64,000 nt of DNA from Prochlorococcus sp. AG-402-G10 (lineage in GTDB: Bacteria > Cyanobacteriota > Cyanobacteriia > PCC-6307 > Cyanobiaceae): NCBI GenBank assembly GCA_003279445.1, contig QCHT01000001.1:124001-188000 (forward strand). The letters are read 5' to 3'. A model generated the notes under the pieces. The model had not been told where the DNA came from. It did not search any database and saw only the letters and a program-made list of their open reading frames with translations. The translations under genes were made by a program, and so were the position numbers. How positions within the stretch are numbered: position 1 is the stretch's first letter; the number at the start of each line of letters is the position of its first letter. This document shows, piece after piece, positions 19,025 through 55,233 of the stretch.

Positions 19025-19086
19025 AATCTAGAAGAGAATGAAAATAAACTTTATCAGCTCTTGTGCAGTTTTGTAAGTAGAATTAC

Positions 19087-20031
19087 TTACTGCTTATCAG
19101 GGGACCAGGACGACCCCATTGTTTGAAGGCTTAGTAAGGGAGCTCGACTTGCGACACCTTCGCTTTCCCAAGCTCTAACCATAGCCTGGCTAATGGCCTT
19201 CCCCTTGTCTTCTTTGCATAAGGCAAGAATACTTGGCCCTGCGCCACTTATAGCGCACCCAAATGCGCCTGCTTCAATAGCAGCTTGGCAGACAGTAGTC
19301 CCACCTTTTATTAATTTCCATCTGTAAGGTTCATGCAGTCGATCATGCATTCCATCTGTGATTAGGTCTGATCTTCCTGTTCTGAGACCATGAAGCAACA
19401 GGGTTAGAGCTCCAAGATTCATTACTGCATCTGATACAGGTACTGTCTTGGGCATTACACGTCTTGCTTCGCTAGTGCTCAACCTTAAGGAAGGAATAGC
19501 AACTACAGCTTTTATCGATTTGTCCCAATCACATTTGACAACTCTCCACCTTTGGGAAGCTGCTTTTGCGGTAAAACATAAACCTCCAAGTAGAGAAGGA
19601 ACAACATTGTCTGGGTGCCCTTCTATATCAATTGCAAGTTCTAGAAGTTTTTCTTTGCTCAAGGGATCATTTAGGAGCGCATTTGCTCCTACCAAACCTG
19701 CAACAATTGCTGTTGCACTGCTGCCTAAGCCTCGAGCAGGAGGAACGGCTAGTTTTACTCTTGCTTCTAATGCAAAGGGTTCTATTGCGGCTGTTTGCCA
19801 TACTCTTTGCGCAGCTCGGTAAAACAGATTTTCTGGCCCGCCTCTTAAATGATTTCCTTCTGTACTTTCCATAATTAATTCAAATCTTTCGCTAGCCCCT
19901 TCTATTCTCATGATCGAAAAGTGGTTTTTCAATCCTAAGGCTGCTCCTAGACAATCAAAACCAGGTCCTAGGTTTGCGGTGGTCGAGGGAACTTCCACTA
20001 AAACTTTCTTGCCTATGGGCGGCTGCGTCAT
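19087..20031 (-). CDS. thrB: Homoserine kinase
   Basis: Phosphorylates homoserine on the way to threonine. It is a 314-residue GHMP-family kinase: the N-terminal PSTTANLGPGFDCLGAAL and the ATP-binding loop PPARGLGSSATAIVAGL (about residues 90-106) are both clear, and the C-terminal GAFGCAISGAGPSILAL motif is intact. The glucokinase gene is 13 bases upstream on the same strand and ndhD follows after 62 bases, so all may share a transcript. Confidence 0.97.
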   Translation of the reverse strand: MTQPPIGKKVLVEVPSTTANLGPGFDCLGAALGLKNHFSIMRIEGASERFELIMESTEGNHLRGGPENLFYRAAQRVWQTAAIEPFALEARVKLAVPPARGLGSSATAIVAGLVGANALLNDPLSKEKLLELAIDIEGHPDNVVPSLLGGLCFTAKAASQRWRVVKCDWDKSIKAVVAIPSLRLSTSEARRVMPKTVPVSDAVMNLGALTLLLHGLRTGRSDLITDGMHDRLHEPYRWKLIKGGTTVCQAAIEAGAFGCAISGAGPSILALCKEDKGKAISQAMVRAWESEGVASRAPLLSLQTMGSSWSPDKQ

Positions 20032-48990: not shown

Positions 48991-50052
48991 TTATGCTTTT
49001 ATGGCTGACCATACTTTTGTCATGAAAAATGAATCACTATTTATACATTTAAAACCATTCATGGATAGCCTTAGATCAATATCATCTTTAATATAATTTT
49101 TATAATATGGCTCATGAAATATTCTATGGAAATTCTCTAATACAGAAGAGAATTCTGGGGAATCACTAAGTTGAATTGAGTCTGCAAGAATTAATACACC
49201 ATTAGGTTGTAGAAGGCGATAGCATTCCTTTATAACATTATCCCTTGCTTTCCCTGGCAATTCATGGAATAGAAATACACATGTAATTGCTTGGAATGAT
49301 TGATCTAGGATAGGTACTCTTTCTGCATTTCCTTTAATTAATTGCACTAATTCATTCTCACCATTGTTTAAATATTTGCTTGCTTGTTTTAAATACGAGG
49401 CGGATAAATCTAATCCAGTAAGTTCAGATGTTGGGAAGGCAGATCTTATTTGCTGAAGAGTTCTACCTGTACCTGTTGCTAGGTCTAGGATTTTTAAACT
49501 TGAATCATTTGATTCTGGGAAATATTTATTGATTTCAGTTTTCAATGGAGCTATCACTCTCCTTCTCATTGCATCTGCTGTTCCATTAAAAAGAATCTCT
49601 ACCTGAATATCATAAATTGATGCTGAATAATCACTTAGATATCCATCTGTTTGATGATGGAAGTTTTGCAAATAATAATCTGGATAGATCTCTTTATTAA
49701 TTGAATGAGGAAGGTCCTGGATATTCCTGTCCTTTCTTCTACTCCAAGTTGATGGCATATCTAGCCAGACTAATGGATATTTTAAAAACCATTCTATCCA
49801 AGGTGCTTCAAAAAGAAGATTTTTTGGATATAAACCTCGTTCCGCATCATACCAATCTATTTCTTCAAGATCTTTAATTGATTTTCTTAGATCAAGAAGT
49901 AGTTCCTTTGTTATATGAGATGTATCCGGAATAGCTTCAGGTACAAGAAATCCCATTAATTTCGTACTTATTTCCTTATGCGCGATTCCAAGAAGACCTT
50001 TGCCTTGCTGCAAGGTTTGATATGCAATTTTTGCGAGGCTTGGCTCGGACAT
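48991..50052 (-). CDS. SAM-dependent methyltransferase (cyanobacterial type)
   Basis: A 353-residue protein with a class I methyltransferase core: SAM loop KILDLATGTGRTLQQI (residues 187-202), LTGLDLSASYL and then AITCVFLFHELPG. An N-terminal domain of about 130 residues is unlike standard family members and precedes the conserved YYLQNFHHQTDGYLSDYSA segment that is shared by cyanobacterial and plant relatives. The substrate is unknown; an aromatic or lipid quinone type is conceivable. The gene is convergent with acs. Confidence 0.85.
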   Translation of the reverse strand: MSEPSLAKIAYQTLQQGKGLLGIAHKEISTKLMGFLVPEAIPDTSHITKELLLDLRKSIKDLEEIDWYDAERGLYPKNLLFEAPWIEWFLKYPLVWLDMPSTWSRRKDRNIQDLPHSINKEIYPDYYLQNFHHQTDGYLSDYSASIYDIQVEILFNGTADAMRRRVIAPLKTEINKYFPESNDSSLKILDLATGTGRTLQQIRSAFPTSELTGLDLSASYLKQASKYLNNGENELVQLIKGNAERVPILDQSFQAITCVFLFHELPGKARDNVIKECYRLLQPNGVLILADSIQLSDSPEFSSVLENFHRIFHEPYYKNYIKDDIDLRLSMNGFKCINSDSFFMTKVWSAIKA

Positions 50053-50462
50053 GGGTGTTTTTAGATAAATCTATTTCAGCAGATTTTTTGCCTTTCCGTG
50101 AGTTTATGTTCAATTTCTGTTGCCAAGAGAATTAATTTTGGGAGAAAAACTCATTTTAATCAATATTCACTTTATTATTTTTAGATTTTATAAGAAGGCG
50201 AATTATGAACTAGCTACAATTACTTTTATTCGTGAAATAATAATCTCACTTTAATCTCCATTATTTAATGAATATATAATAATTAAACTTTCTTAATTTA
50301 AGCCAGAGGTGAAATTATGCTTGTAATTCCTTCCTTTCCATTTTGTTTAGTTAGATCAATGGTAATAAATTTCAAAAAAATAAGGAATACCCAAAATATA
50401 GTCTATGAAGCATTCCTTTTTCTAAAACTAATTGAATCTTAGTTCTTTTTGATTGGCATACC
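50053..50462. other. Intergenic region between the methyltransferase and glnA
   Basis: A 410-base AT-rich gap, both neighbours on the minus strand. The only structure is a possible plus-strand 41-codon frame (50317-50442). I did not find a glnA terminator with a stem and T-tract, nor a tRNA. Confidence 0.45.
50317..50442 (+). CDS. Possible small protein of 41 residues
   Basis: An ATG at 50317 opens a 41-residue frame ending at TAG 50440-50442, on the opposite strand to glnA and convergent with it. It is preceded by AGAGGTG five bases before the ATG, a better ribosome-binding match than most genes here have. The peptide starts MLVIPSFPFCLVR and has a basic centre and a hydrophobic end. I recognise no family, so it may be spurious. 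Confidence 0.3.
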   Translation: MLVIPSFPFCLVRSMVINFKKIRNTQNIVYEAFLFLKLIES

Positions 50463-51884
50463 CTATGCGTCGTAGTACATGAAGAACTCATGAGGGTGAG
50501 GTCTCTGCCTTAATTGCTGGACTTCCTCATATTTCATCTCAATGAAATTGTCAATAAAGTCTGTGTCGAATACTCCTCCCTCTGTTAAGTAATCATTGTC
50601 ATCTTTTAATGCCTCTAAAGCATCGTTTAATGAAGATGGCACAGTTGCTATCTTTGCAAGTTCTTCCGCAGGAAGTTCAAATAAATCTCTATCTTCACCA
50701 TCACCTGGGTCGATTTGATTTTTTATTCCATCTATTCCCGCCATAAGCATTGCACTAAAGGCTAAATATGGATTTGCCAATGCATCTCCTGGTCTGAATT
50801 CCAATCTTTTTGCTTTTGGACTTGGCCCAGTGAGAGGGATCCTGATTGCCGCAGACCGATTGCCTTGTGAATAGACAAGATTCACTGGAGCTTCGAAACC
50901 TGGGACAAGACGTTTGTAACTGTTAGTGCCTGGATTTGTAAAGGCTAGAAATGAAGGCGCATGCTTAAGAATACCCCCTATATACCATCTTGCTGTTTGG
51001 GAGAGGTTTGCGTAAGTACCTTCACCAAAGAAAAGAGGCTTACCAGCTTGCCATAGGCTTTGGTGAACATGCATGCCTGTGCCATTGTCATTCCAGACAG
51101 GTTTTGGCATAAAGGTCGCAGTTTTACCATATTTTTTAGCAATATTCCTTACGACATATTTATATGTCATGACATTGTCAGCTGCTTCGATAAGAGAAGC
51201 GAATTTCATACCTAACTCATGTTGTCCAGGGCCAGCAACTTCATGATGATGTTTCTCGATTGGTATTCCAAGTTCTCCCATGAGTAGCAGCATCTCAGAT
51301 CGCATGTCTTGAGCTGTATCATTTGGAGAAACAGGGAAATAACCTTCTTTGTATTGAATTTTGTAACCTAGGTTCCCACCCTCTTCTGCTCTTGCGGTGT
51401 TCCAAGGGGCTTCGATACTATCAACGCTGTAAAAAGAAGTACCTTCCTTTGAGTCGTATCTTACATCGTCAAAAATAAAGAACTCAGGCTCAGGTCCAAA
51501 AAAAGCAGCATCTGCTAGTCCAGTAGTTGAAAGATAGGATAATGCTTTTTGGGCTAATGCTCTTGGGCATCGTGAGTAAGGATCTCCACTTCTAGGCTCT
51601 TGTATTGAGCAAATCATACTTAGAGTCTTATGCCGGTAAAAGGGATCTATCCATGAAGTGTTCGCATCTGGGACCATTGACATGTCGGATTCATTTATCG
51701 CTTTCCATCCTCTGATTGAAGATCCGTCAAACGCCAATCCCTCTTTGAATGCACTTTCATCAATCATGTCTGAAGTAACAGTTAAATGCTGCCATTTTCC
51801 ATGGATGTCAGTGAATTTGAGATCAATGAGTTCAATCCCCTCGTCTTTGATCTGCCTTAGTACGTCTTGAGCTGATTTTCCCAT
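50463..51884 (-). CDS. glnA: Glutamine synthetase type I
   Basis: Central ammonium-assimilating enzyme. The 473-residue protein has all GSI signatures: [18 protein letters not shown], the ATP region [16 protein letters not shown], and [12 protein letters not shown]. Where the enterobacterial enzyme has the adenylylated tyrosine (NLYDLP), this one reads DLFELP with F402, so adenylylation at that site is not possible, in keeping with cyanobacteria, which use inactivating factors instead. An NtcA-type promoter sits at 51912-51953. Confidence 0.98.
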
Positions 51885-51911
51885 GGACTATTTTTTGATA
51901 TGTATATACCA

Positions 51912-51953
51912 AAATTAATTACGAAGTGCTTCAGGTTATGTATCAATAAGTAC
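51912..51953 (-). promoter_or_regulatory. NtcA-activated promoter of glnA
   Basis: On the minus strand the sequence reads GTA-N8-TAC (51953-51940), 22 bases, then TAATTT (51917-51912). This is the full cyanobacterial NtcA class II layout GTAN8TAC-N22-TAN3T, with no deviation in the conserved positions. The predicted start would lie about 20 bases upstream of the glnA ATG. NtcA with 2-oxoglutarate would activate glnA during nitrogen shortage. Confidence 0.88.
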
Positions 51954-52144
51954 TTTTTTACACTCTGCTTAGAATCTCATTTGTTTTATTGGCCTATTAG
52001 ATTTCTTGCCTATAAAAAACCAGTATTTCATGTTCTCACCATTGCAATACCTAAAATTAATTTCACGACAATACCATTAGGTGTTTAGGCTCAAGGTTAA
52101 GCAATCATTTCTATCCGGTCTTGGCACCAACCGCTTACTCTGCA

Positions 52145-53284
52145 ATGTTAAAAAATTCTGGCACGTCAGTACCCTCTCTCTCAGTGCCAGAGAGACTTTT
52201 GCTAGGACCTGGGCCTTCTAATTCTCACCCTTTGGTCCTGGAAGCATTGTCTTGCCAACCAGTGGGCCATTTAGATCCTTTTTATATTGATTTAATGGCT
52301 GAGGTTCAGGGATTATTACGAGATGTTTGGCAGACTTCTAATCGCCTAACACTTCCAATGAGTGGGACTGGTAGTGCTGCCATGGAAGCAACAATTGCAA
52401 ATATCATTGAACCTGGAGAAATTTTCCTTGTAGGAATTAACGGCTATTTTGGGAACCGTTTGGCTGATATGGCTTCTAGATATCAAGCAAAAGTTAGAAC
52501 AATTGAGAAACCCTGGGGAGAAGCATTTTCTCTTGATGATATTGAATCTGCTTTGATTAAATACAAACCTTCTGTTTTTGCCTTAGTTCATGCCGAAACT
52601 TCAACAGGAGTTTGTCAACCAATGCAGCAAATAGGTGATTTGTGCCGACGATATGATTGCCTCTTGATTCTAGATACAGTAACTTCACTTGGAAGTATCC
52701 CTTTATTCCTGGATGAATGGAAGGTAGATCTTGCCTATAGTTGTAGTCAAAAGGGACTTAGTTGTCCTCCAGGACTTGGTCCTTTTACAATGAATAAAAG
52801 AGCAGAAGAAAAACTTAATAATAGAAAAGGTAAAGTCCCGAATTGGTATTTAGATCTTTCTTTGTTAAATCAGTATTGGGGTAGTGATCGTGTTTATCAT
52901 CACACAGCACCAGTGAATATGAATTTTGGTATTCGCGAGGCTCTCAGATTAATTGTTGAAGAAGGCTTGGAAAATTCATGGGATCGCCATAGAACAAATG
53001 CTGAAGCCTTATGGAATGGATTACAAAGTATGGGCTTGGAGCTTCATGTTAAAGAGGAACTTCGGCTCCCAACACTTACTACTGTAAAGATTCCCAATGG
53101 TATTCATGGTAAATCATTTACTCAGCATTTACTGAATAATTTTGGTGTAGAAATAGGAGGAGGTTTAGGTGAGTTAGCAGGCAAAGTCTGGAGAATTGGT
53201 CTTATGGGATATAATTCAAAGAGAAAAAATGTTGATAAGATCTTAGATCTTTTTGAGTCTGAATTACCTAAATTTAAAGGCTAA
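52145..53284 (+). CDS. Serine-pyruvate/alanine-glyoxylate aminotransferase
   Basis: Class V PLP aminotransferase of about 379 residues, which interconverts glyoxylate and glycine with serine or alanine as donor, useful in photorespiratory 2-phosphoglycolate salvage. Conserved parts are LLLGPGPSNSHPLVLEAL, the MSGTGSAAMEAT phosphate site, and the PLP lysine in AYSCSQKGLSCPPGLGPF. The ATG at 52145 is chosen; a TTG at 52121 adds eight residues. It is divergent from glnA, so both share the regulatory gap of about 260 bases. It is convergent with tadA. Confidence 0.92.
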   Translation: MLKNSGTSVPSLSVPERLLLGPGPSNSHPLVLEALSCQPVGHLDPFYIDLMAEVQGLLRDVWQTSNRLTLPMSGTGSAAMEATIANIIEPGEIFLVGINGYFGNRLADMASRYQAKVRTIEKPWGEAFSLDDIESALIKYKPSVFALVHAETSTGVCQPMQQIGDLCRRYDCLLILDTVTSLGSIPLFLDEWKVDLAYSCSQKGLSCPPGLGPFTMNKRAEEKLNNRKGKVPNWYLDLSLLNQYWGSDRVYHHTAPVNMNFGIREALRLIVEEGLENSWDRHRTNAEALWNGLQSMGLELHVKEELRLPTLTTVKIPNGIHGKSFTQHLLNNFGVEIGGGLGELAGKVWRIGLMGYNSKRKNVDKILDLFESELPKFKG

Positions 53285-53287
53285 TAT

Positions 53288-53776
53288 TTACTTGGATCTA
53301 TGAATTTTAAACCATTCTTTTAGTTCATATTTGAGTTGATCTTCCAAAATTCCTCTTTCAATAGTCATTTTATGATGAGCACTTTTATGTGAGGTTAAAT
53401 CTATGGATCCGCCCATTCCACCTCTTTTCTTATCTTCTGTTCCATATATAACCTTCCCCATTCTTGCTTGAATAAGTGCACCAGAACACATTTGGCATGG
53501 TTCAAGAGTCACTATCAAGGTGCATTCATTGAATCTCCAATCTCTTTTTATCCAAGCAGCTTGACGAAGAGCAATTAGTTCTGCGTGTCCTAAAGGGTTG
53601 CAATCTCTATTTCTAGTATTTCTTCCATGACCAATACATTGCCCCTTTTCGTTTAGGATTATTGCTGAAACTGGAACTTCCCCATCATCACCAGCATTTC
53701 TCGCTCTTTTAAGAAGAATGAACATCCATCGAAGGGTTTGTGTATCGTTGAGTTGTATTGGTTTAGCAAATTGCAT
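53288..53776 (-). CDS. tadA: tRNA-specific adenosine deaminase
   Basis: Deaminates the wobble adenosine of tRNA-Arg(ACG) to inosine. The 162-residue protein carries the zinc-deaminase motifs HAELIAL (H ligand and catalytic E) and PCQMCSGA (two cysteine ligands), with the family's conserved sequence ARMGKVIYGTEDKKRGG after it. Slightly longer at the N-terminus than E. coli TadA. It is convergent with the aminotransferase gene (three-base gap). Confidence 0.95.
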   Translation of the reverse strand: MQFAKPIQLNDTQTLRWMFILLKRARNAGDDGEVPVSAIILNEKGQCIGHGRNTRNRDCNPLGHAELIALRQAAWIKRDWRFNECTLIVTLEPCQMCSGALIQARMGKVIYGTEDKKRGGMGGSIDLTSHKSAHHKMTIERGILEDQLKYELKEWFKIHRSK

Positions 53777-53865
53777 AGGTGTAAAAACAAACCTTTAAAT
53801 ACGAACTTACTGAATTTTATTTCTCAACAATTCTTTTTGGTATAAATACCTGATAGGAAATTCCA

Positions 53866-55233
53866 TTGGACTTTTTTGCATCACCAAATCATTCTGATCC
53901 AAAATTTAAATCTTTTTTAGAAGATGCTTGTGGCAGTCTTTGTAGTTGGATATCCACGACGCATGAGAAGGGACCCCTGCCTTCATTATTTGATTTACCG
54001 GATGTTCAACCCTGCTTAGAAGGATTGCCTCCTGAACAACTATTGGAGGATATTCAGAAGTTGATGTCAGGTTCATATCATTCATCTCATCCAGGTGCTC
54101 TTGCACATTTAGACCCTCCTCCCCTTACTGGTTCAATTATTGGGGAGTTGATATGTGCAGGCCTTAATAATAATTTATTGGCTGAGGAACTTTCTCCAAG
54201 TATCACAAAATTAGAGCGTAGCCTTTGTAAATGGATTTCAGAAGAATTGGGAATGCCGAGTACTTCTGGGGGAGTAGCTGCATGTGGTGGAAGTCTAGCT
54301 AATTTAATGGCTTTGTTGGTTGCAAGATCTAACAGCAACTCTCTCTATAACTCAGATGCTGTTGTTCTTGTAAGTGAAGAAGCTCATGTCTCAATTGCCA
54401 GGGCAGTTTCGGTCATGGGTCTGCCTCCAGATTCTCTATGTAAGATTTCGACTGATAATGATGGCAGAATTGATATCACATCTCTAAAGAAAAGGTTTTC
54501 AGAAATAAAAACCCTTGGTAAAACCTGCATAGCTGTTGTTGCAACTGCAGGTACAACTATTAGAGGAGCAATCGATCCATTAACTGAAATCTCACATTTT
54601 TGTAGGGTTGAGAACCTGTGGCTACATGTAGATGCTGCTATTGGTGGAGTATTTGCTTTGTCGACTTCAACAAAAAAACTTGTATCAGATCTATCTAAGG
54701 CGAATTCAGTTACTGTTAATCCTCAGAAGCTTTTGGGAATCACGAAAACATCGTCGTTATTGCTTGTATCAAACTTTGATGATCTATTTAAATGTTTCTC
54801 AACTGGTTTCCCTTATATTGAACCTTCTTCAGGCTTACAAGTTCAAGGTGGAGAAATTGGATTGCAAGGAACTAGAGCTGCAGAGATAATTAAATTGTGG
54901 ATTGGGTTAAGGCAACTTGGTCAGAATGGAATTCAATTACTTCTTGAACAAGCTATCTTTCGTAGAAGGTATCTAGCTGAGAAGCTAGACAGTCGAAAAC
55001 TTAAGGTAATTACTGGACCCTTGCACTTGTTAGCTGTTACTCCCCTTGATGCTACTTCTCTTGAAGCTGATGAATGGTCAGTTAGGACTAAATCTCGATT
55101 GTTAGAGAGTAATTTCTTGCTATCAAGACCTAAATATCAGAATCGCTATTATTTGAAGGCAGTCATGGGTAACCCTCATACACAAACTTCACATATAGAT
55201 GAATTGGCAGAAACCTTGAATCAATCTGTTTAA
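53866..55233 (+). CDS. PLP-dependent group II decarboxylase family protein
   Basis: A 455-residue protein of the glutamate/tyrosine/diaminobutyrate decarboxylase family. It has the N-terminal LAHLDPPPLTGSIIGELICAGLNNN region, the cofactor-binding VDAAIGGVFALS, and a PLP lysine in VNPQKLLGITKTSSLLL. Instead of the usual His-Lys before it, this protein has Gln-Lys. The substrate is not clear; aspartate, cysteine sulfinate or diaminobutyrate are possible. Start is TTG 53866. The small membrane protein gene begins five bases after its stop. Confidence 0.85.
   Translation: MDFFASPNHSDPKFKSFLEDACGSLCSWISTTHEKGPLPSLFDLPDVQPCLEGLPPEQLLEDIQKLMSGSYHSSHPGALAHLDPPPLTGSIIGELICAGLNNNLLAEELSPSITKLERSLCKWISEELGMPSTSGGVAACGGSLANLMALLVARSNSNSLYNSDAVVLVSEEAHVSIARAVSVMGLPPDSLCKISTDNDGRIDITSLKKRFSEIKTLGKTCIAVVATAGTTIRGAIDPLTEISHFCRVENLWLHVDAAIGGVFALSTSTKKLVSDLSKANSVTVNPQKLLGITKTSSLLLVSNFDDLFKCFSTGFPYIEPSSGLQVQGGEIGLQGTRAAEIIKLWIGLRQLGQNGIQLLLEQAIFRRRYLAEKLDSRKLKVITGPLHLLAVTPLDATSLEADEWSVRTKSRLLESNFLLSRPKYQNRYYLKAVMGNPHTQTSHIDELAETLNQSV

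Follow-up and report, generated by a model that had tools for sequence, protein, structure and literature searches.

A candidate class II NtcA promoter of glnA in an SS120-group Prochlorococcus and the operator register used in a published SS120 binding assay

The glnA upstream region compared with described NtcA promoters

Class II NtcA promoters of cyanobacteria, among which glnA is named, contain a GTAN8TAC operator near position -41.5 together with a TAN3T box (PMC3898017). In vitro, binding of NtcA to the glnA operator has been shown for both Prochlorococcus MED4 and MIT9313 (PMC5767323), and glnA is upregulated in nitrogen-deprived MED4 (PMC5607370). The locus described here lies within a stretch of 64,000 nucleotides (the window), taken from a Prochlorococcus genome of 1.62 Mb in 37 contigs that is 89.7% complete. 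The gene concerned is the same as in the MED4 and MIT9313 studies: glnA, encoding a type I glutamine synthetase of 473 amino acids, occupies positions 50463-51884 of the minus strand and is identified by the NCBIfam profile TIGR00653, which it matches at 648.7 bits (cut-off 429.15).

Read along the minus strand, the candidate operator GTACTTATTGATAC (51953-51940, centre 51946.5) is followed by exactly 22 bases, the -10 element TAATTT (51917-51912) and the glnA ATG at 51884; from the last T of the -10 element, at 51912, it is 28 positions to the A of this codon. An initial annotation had described this order, namely GTA-N8-TAC, exactly 22 bases, TAN3T and 28 bases to the glnA ATG, and it is borne out both by the sequence itself and by a genome-wide pattern search, which places the 42-base site (window 51912-51953) at G000:C1:175912-175953 on the minus strand. 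The canonical class II features, a GTAN8TAC operator and a TAN3T box about 22 bases downstream, are thus present at glnA as they are in the promoters of PMC3898017. The centring at -41.5 is a prediction in the present case: when the geometry given in PMC3898017 is applied to the operator centre, the predicted transcription start falls at 51905 on the minus strand, which would leave a glnA leader of about 21 bases, near the roughly 20 bases that the initial annotation had expected. Adjoining the operator on its upstream side, at 51954-51963 of the same strand, are an A-tract and a GT located 10 bases before the operator start, the GT possibly marking a second register that overlaps the operator.

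The closest counterparts differ from the window to varying degrees. SS120 (loci L098 and L153, genome G001) is identical to the window in GTACTTATTGATAC, the N22 spacing and the TAATTT box and differs in the sequence of the spacer and leader. The left half of the MED4 operator is GTT in the published oligonucleotide (PMC5767323), in contrast to GTA in the window, and the MIT9313 operator is GTACCTGTTGCTAC, unlike that of the window. Among the loci that we collected, two with MED4-like operators (L035 and L037) and one from strain MIT 0701 with an MIT9313-like operator (L038) have the same divergent neighbor as the window; the TAN3T box is at N22 in L035 and L037, as in the window, and at N23 in L038.

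Conservation of the operator and the NtcA regulator

Fourteen genomes of the same genus were searched, and a glnA match was obtained in 12 (none in G004 or G010). All 12, including the genome of the window, contain GTACT-NN-TTGATAC followed by N22 and TAN3T. In an alignment of these 12 genomes, which have a mean pairwise identity of 0.69 over the aligned stretch, 12 of the 14 operator columns and five of the six -10 box columns are invariant. Elsewhere invariant columns are fewer: the spacer has 5 among 22, the leader 3 among 27 and the mid-intergenic stretch (51964-52035) only 4 among 72, and the operator is therefore conserved well above its surroundings (12/14 vs 4/72).

Sites at glnA loci outside the genus were tabulated for 44 (L009-L052) of 80 loci, L053-L088 being titled as other bacteria. 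One locus (L009) was removed as a duplicate of L093, reducing the Prochlorococcus-type set from 33 to 32; two members of this set (L013 and L015) are titled Synechococcaceae. One locus titled as an actinomycete (L051) and three from distant cyanobacteria (L047, L049 and L052) were kept outside the Prochlorococcus counts. The site tables demand GT-N10-AC with TAN3T at N19-25, so the GT and AC are preset by the pattern and the informative properties are those left free, which are the third and twelfth operator letters and the spacing within N19-25. Among the 32 loci, many of which are closely related to each other and therefore do not constitute 32 independent cases, the spacing is N22 in 31 and N23 in one, the left half is GTA in 5, GTT in 24 and GTG in 3, and the right half is TAC in every one. 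Erosion of the operator across this set (L010-L039, L045 and L048) is accordingly asymmetric, with GTT or GTG replacing the left half in 27 of the 32 loci. The seven other picocyanobacterial loci likewise all have TAC as the right half, with N21, N22 and N23 spacings in one, four and two loci, respectively.

A matrix built from 39 outside-genus glnA promoters (27 distinct 14-mers, chosen with TAN3T at N21-23) ranks 51940-51953 first of 127,972 window positions. A search of 61 family genomes with 91 bases of DNA recovered the genus members G000 and G001 and none of the 59 others, the search being too stringent for other genera.

The regulator is intact in the window genome: ntcA, at G000:C15:15816-16388, scores 355.9 bits against a cut-off of 244.95 for TIGR03697, and the best PDB matches of its product are NtcA structures. 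Full-length-type NtcA matches were found in 12 of the 14 genus genomes; the weak matches that were alone obtained from G005 (71% complete) and G008 (70% complete) may reflect missing sequence. The recognition-helix stretch IAEAIGSTRVTITRLLGDLRNLG is identical in 12 genus NtcA proteins, which were picked by the string EAIGSTRVT, so that identity over that part is given.

Taken together, the geometry, the conservation in 12/12 genomes, the intact ntcA gene and the published binding and induction in relatives lead us to conclude with high confidence that this SS120-group Prochlorococcus has a class II NtcA-activated promoter on glnA, as the initial annotation had claimed. Control of glnA through NtcA is ordinary, well-conserved, textbook biology, in which PipX acts with NtcA in activation. 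Under nitrogen scarcity, a dimer of NtcA loaded with 2-oxoglutarate and accompanied by PipX would occupy GTACTTATTGATAC, with its centre at -41.5, and would recruit RNA polymerase to the TAATTT box, with glnA transcription beginning about 21 bases 5' of the ATG. For the window genome we infer operator occupancy, start site, activation and effector dependence by analogy with these relatives.

The divergent aminotransferase gene

The gene divergent to glnA (52145-53284, plus strand) encodes a class V aminotransferase, probably an alanine/serine-glyoxylate aminotransferase; its start was taken at the ATG at 52145 of an ORF that opens at a TTG at 52121. The product matches Pfam PF00266 and has 1vjo, an alanine--glyoxylate aminotransferase, as its best PDB match (E 4.9e-165); no NCBIfam equivalog scored above its cut-off. 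An aminotransferase homologue is divergent to glnA in 52 of the 56 loci tested, freshwater picocyanobacteria included (L009 and L093 count as one locus).

The symmetry of the operator and the age of this divergent arrangement raise the question, also put forward by the initial annotation, of whether the site affects the aminotransferase as well, such that a single NtcA operator at 51940-51953 would activate glnA and either activate or repress its neighbor. We consider such a dual role quite improbable. A TAN3T sequence at N20-24 from the operator on the aminotransferase side is present in none of the 12 genus genomes, and the site is thus not a bidirectional class II promoter by that measure; a TAN3T at N16 on that side occurs in 4 of the 12. 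The two genes are separated by 811-1023 bases in seven freshwater or other picocyanobacterial loci. Moreover, the unconserved stretch at 51964-52035 lies between the operator and a separate conserved block, CATTGCAATACCTAAAAT...TTTAGGCTC (52036-52105, plus strand), which is 5' of the aminotransferase gene and about 100 bases from the NtcA operator and in which 40 of 70 columns are invariant in the 12 genomes, as opposed to 4 of 72 in the intervening stretch.

The block was partly recognizable by alignment in six of 12 chosen outgroup loci (L010, L012, L020, L028, L036 and L038) and not recognizable in the other six (L011, L024, L031, L035, L039 and L048). The sequence CATTGCAATACC within it occurs at 21 places in the genome, two exact and 19 with one mismatch, compared with five for a reversed-pattern control. 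An Rfam search of 50000-54000 with E values up to 1 returned no match in the block, and none of three folds computed for the conserved intergenic block stood out (z = -0.81, 0.30 and 0.13). The single Rfam match in 50000-54000, to a snoRNA model, lies within the aminotransferase gene in antisense orientation; it was sub-threshold (19.9 bits vs a gathering score of 40) and was rejected as an RNA element. From its position and conservation, the block at 52036-52105 is probably the promoter or leader of the aminotransferase gene. The gene is most likely driven from this promoter region of its own, and the glnA and aminotransferase promoters look independent.

An overlapping upstream register and the SS120 binding oligonucleotide

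Table 1 of PMC5767323 lists the glnA DNAs that were used for ITC, SPR and EMSA. The SS120 oligonucleotide, CCAATAGTCACAAAAAGTACTTATTG, is identical over 26 bases to locus L098 of genome G001, and in a literature text search its string appeared in PMC5767323 only. It reaches no further than the tenth letter of the 14-base operator GTACTTATTGATAC, where the natural sequence continues ATAC; that is, it is offset 10 bp upstream and is without the ATAC half of the conserved operator. The MED4 and MIT9313 oligonucleotides, in contrast, contain the complete conserved operator. The mutated SS120 oligonucleotide differs at positions 7-20 only, which are exactly GTCACAAAAAGTAC, and a register 10 bp upstream of the conserved operator was therefore taken as the site in that work. 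The TACGGT located at N23 from the upstream register in L098 may be the reason for this choice.

Among the proteins compared in PMC5767323, SS120 NtcA was the weakest binder by ITC, with a Kd of 6.7 µM as against 10 µM for the mutated DNA, a 1.5-fold difference; the corresponding values were 0.97 µM (mutant 2.1 µM) for MIT9313 and 4.8 µM (mutant 9.5 µM) for MED4. In EMSA, SS120 NtcA shifted the SS120 oligonucleotide in a 2-oxoglutarate-dependent manner and the mutated oligonucleotide remained unshifted (PMC5767323). If the operator is defined by conservation, the DNA used lacks the last 4 of its 14 bases, and this probably confounds the SS120 binding values that were published. The idea that NtcA responsiveness has been progressively lost in SS120 and MED4 thus rests, for its SS120 part, partly on an incomplete operator. 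The MED4 part was obtained with a full operator and is untouched by this critique; since the MED4 values are unaffected by the oligonucleotide problem, the wider claim of PMC5767323 may well stand. The promoter itself is expected biology, and the value of the present comparison lies in this corrective to the SS120 assay. The operator string, on either strand, had no match in the literature searched; the SS120 site may already be printed in Su 2005 or Tolonen 2006.

The published EMSA result nevertheless requires that the upstream register, GTGTAAAAAAGTAC in the window and GTCACAAAAAGTAC in SS120, be considered as the true operator. Its GT, 10 bases upstream of the conserved operator, is kept in 10 of the 12 genus genomes and is the top dinucleotide across offsets -33 to -7; AA at offset -34 is present in all 12. 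A TAN3T lies at N23 from this register in 3 of the 12 genomes, among them L098 with its TACGGT, making it a formally possible promoter in SS120. However, the window genome and eight others of the 12 have no TAN3T at N19-25 from the upstream register, and the downstream register has its box at N22 in all 12. The left end of the upstream register contains no invariant column among four in the aligned genomes, the outgroup matrix scores it at -4.81 in SS120 and -10.39 in the window as opposed to 15.11 for the downstream register, and the ITC values for wild-type and mutant DNA are separated by the 1.5-fold difference noted above. On this evidence we regard it as very doubtful that the upstream register is the true operator, and the downstream register, GTACTTATTGATAC, is retained as the candidate activating site.

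Where the upstream GT is present, two overlapping GT-N10-AC registers share the GTAC. In the SS120-type genus the region could accordingly be read as a double overlapping operator, GT-N8-GTAC-N6-GATAC, in which the palindromic GTAC would have two roles: it would supply the left half-site of the activating operator (centre -41.5), and it would complete, on the right, a weaker site lying one helical turn upstream. A dimer of NtcA bound at this upstream site would then compete with the activating dimer and damp the 2-oxoglutarate response of glnA; the upstream dimer would be unproductive or, in SS120, would fire from the alternative TACGGT box. We think such an arrangement unlikely. Shared ancestry may explain the GT in 10 of the 12 genomes, and outside the genus a GT at the -10 offset is found in 9 of the 32 Prochlorococcus-type loci, there without the GTAC half.

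Frequency of the pattern and the meaning of a perfect match

The window contains 14 copies of GTAN8TAC, coding and non-coding sequence pooled, against a shuffle mean of 7.25, and 14 occurrences were reached in 3 of 100 shuffles. The full pattern with N22 is present once in the window; the shuffle mean is 0.36, and at least one match was found in 28 of the 100 shuffles. With the spacing relaxed to N20-24, the whole genome contains 40 matches, eight of them with exactly N22, compared with 96 matches to a reversed-pattern control that differs in base-step make-up and was counted as proof neither way. Only one of the eight exact-N22 matches, that of glnA, has its start within 150 bases of a following ATG-initiated ORF of at least 60 codons, the ORFs in this placement test being mechanical calls. 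With 40 matches in the genome and an N22 match in 28 of 100 shuffles, the consensus match alone is not significant, and consensus counts were dropped as evidence for function, since such matches often arise by chance. The significance of the site derives instead from its position before glnA and its conservation in all 12 genomes. These same frequencies are what would recommend reading the site as a functionless chance match to a loose consensus, a reading of negligible probability that is contradicted by the conservation of the site in 12/12 genomes against an unconserved background and by its location in front of a gene well known as a target of NtcA.

The proposal of the initial annotation that a perfect copy marks glnA as a strong NtcA target is not supported. 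A perfect site is no rarity in this genome, and GTT or GTG is the prevailing left half outside the genus (27/32 loci); MED4 has GTT as its left half, yet its glnA responds. The SS120 literature, which concerns a strain whose loci L098 and L153 carry the same 14-mer as the window, is mixed. After 8 hr of azaserine treatment, SS120 glutamine synthetase protein was at 65% of the control and activity was about 25% higher, a difference that was not significant, and glnA expression in SS120 is said to correlate with the level of glutamine synthetase protein (PMC5451487). After 24 hr of azaserine, activity was up and protein down (PMC5767323). A rise of glnA in nitrogen-starved SS120 is credited to Lopez-Lozano 2009 by PMC4923085. 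In nitrogen-starved MED4, glutamine synthetase protein stayed roughly constant despite a strong transcript response (PMC6316151). Given the fall in SS120 glutamine synthetase protein and its steady level in MED4, strong induction of glnA is not assured.

A further NtcA-like site, GTAAGTAATTCTAC-N23-TAN3T, is present in the window at 19048-19090 on the minus strand and starts 66 bases 5' of a 492-codon ORF that begins MDAILLTQ.
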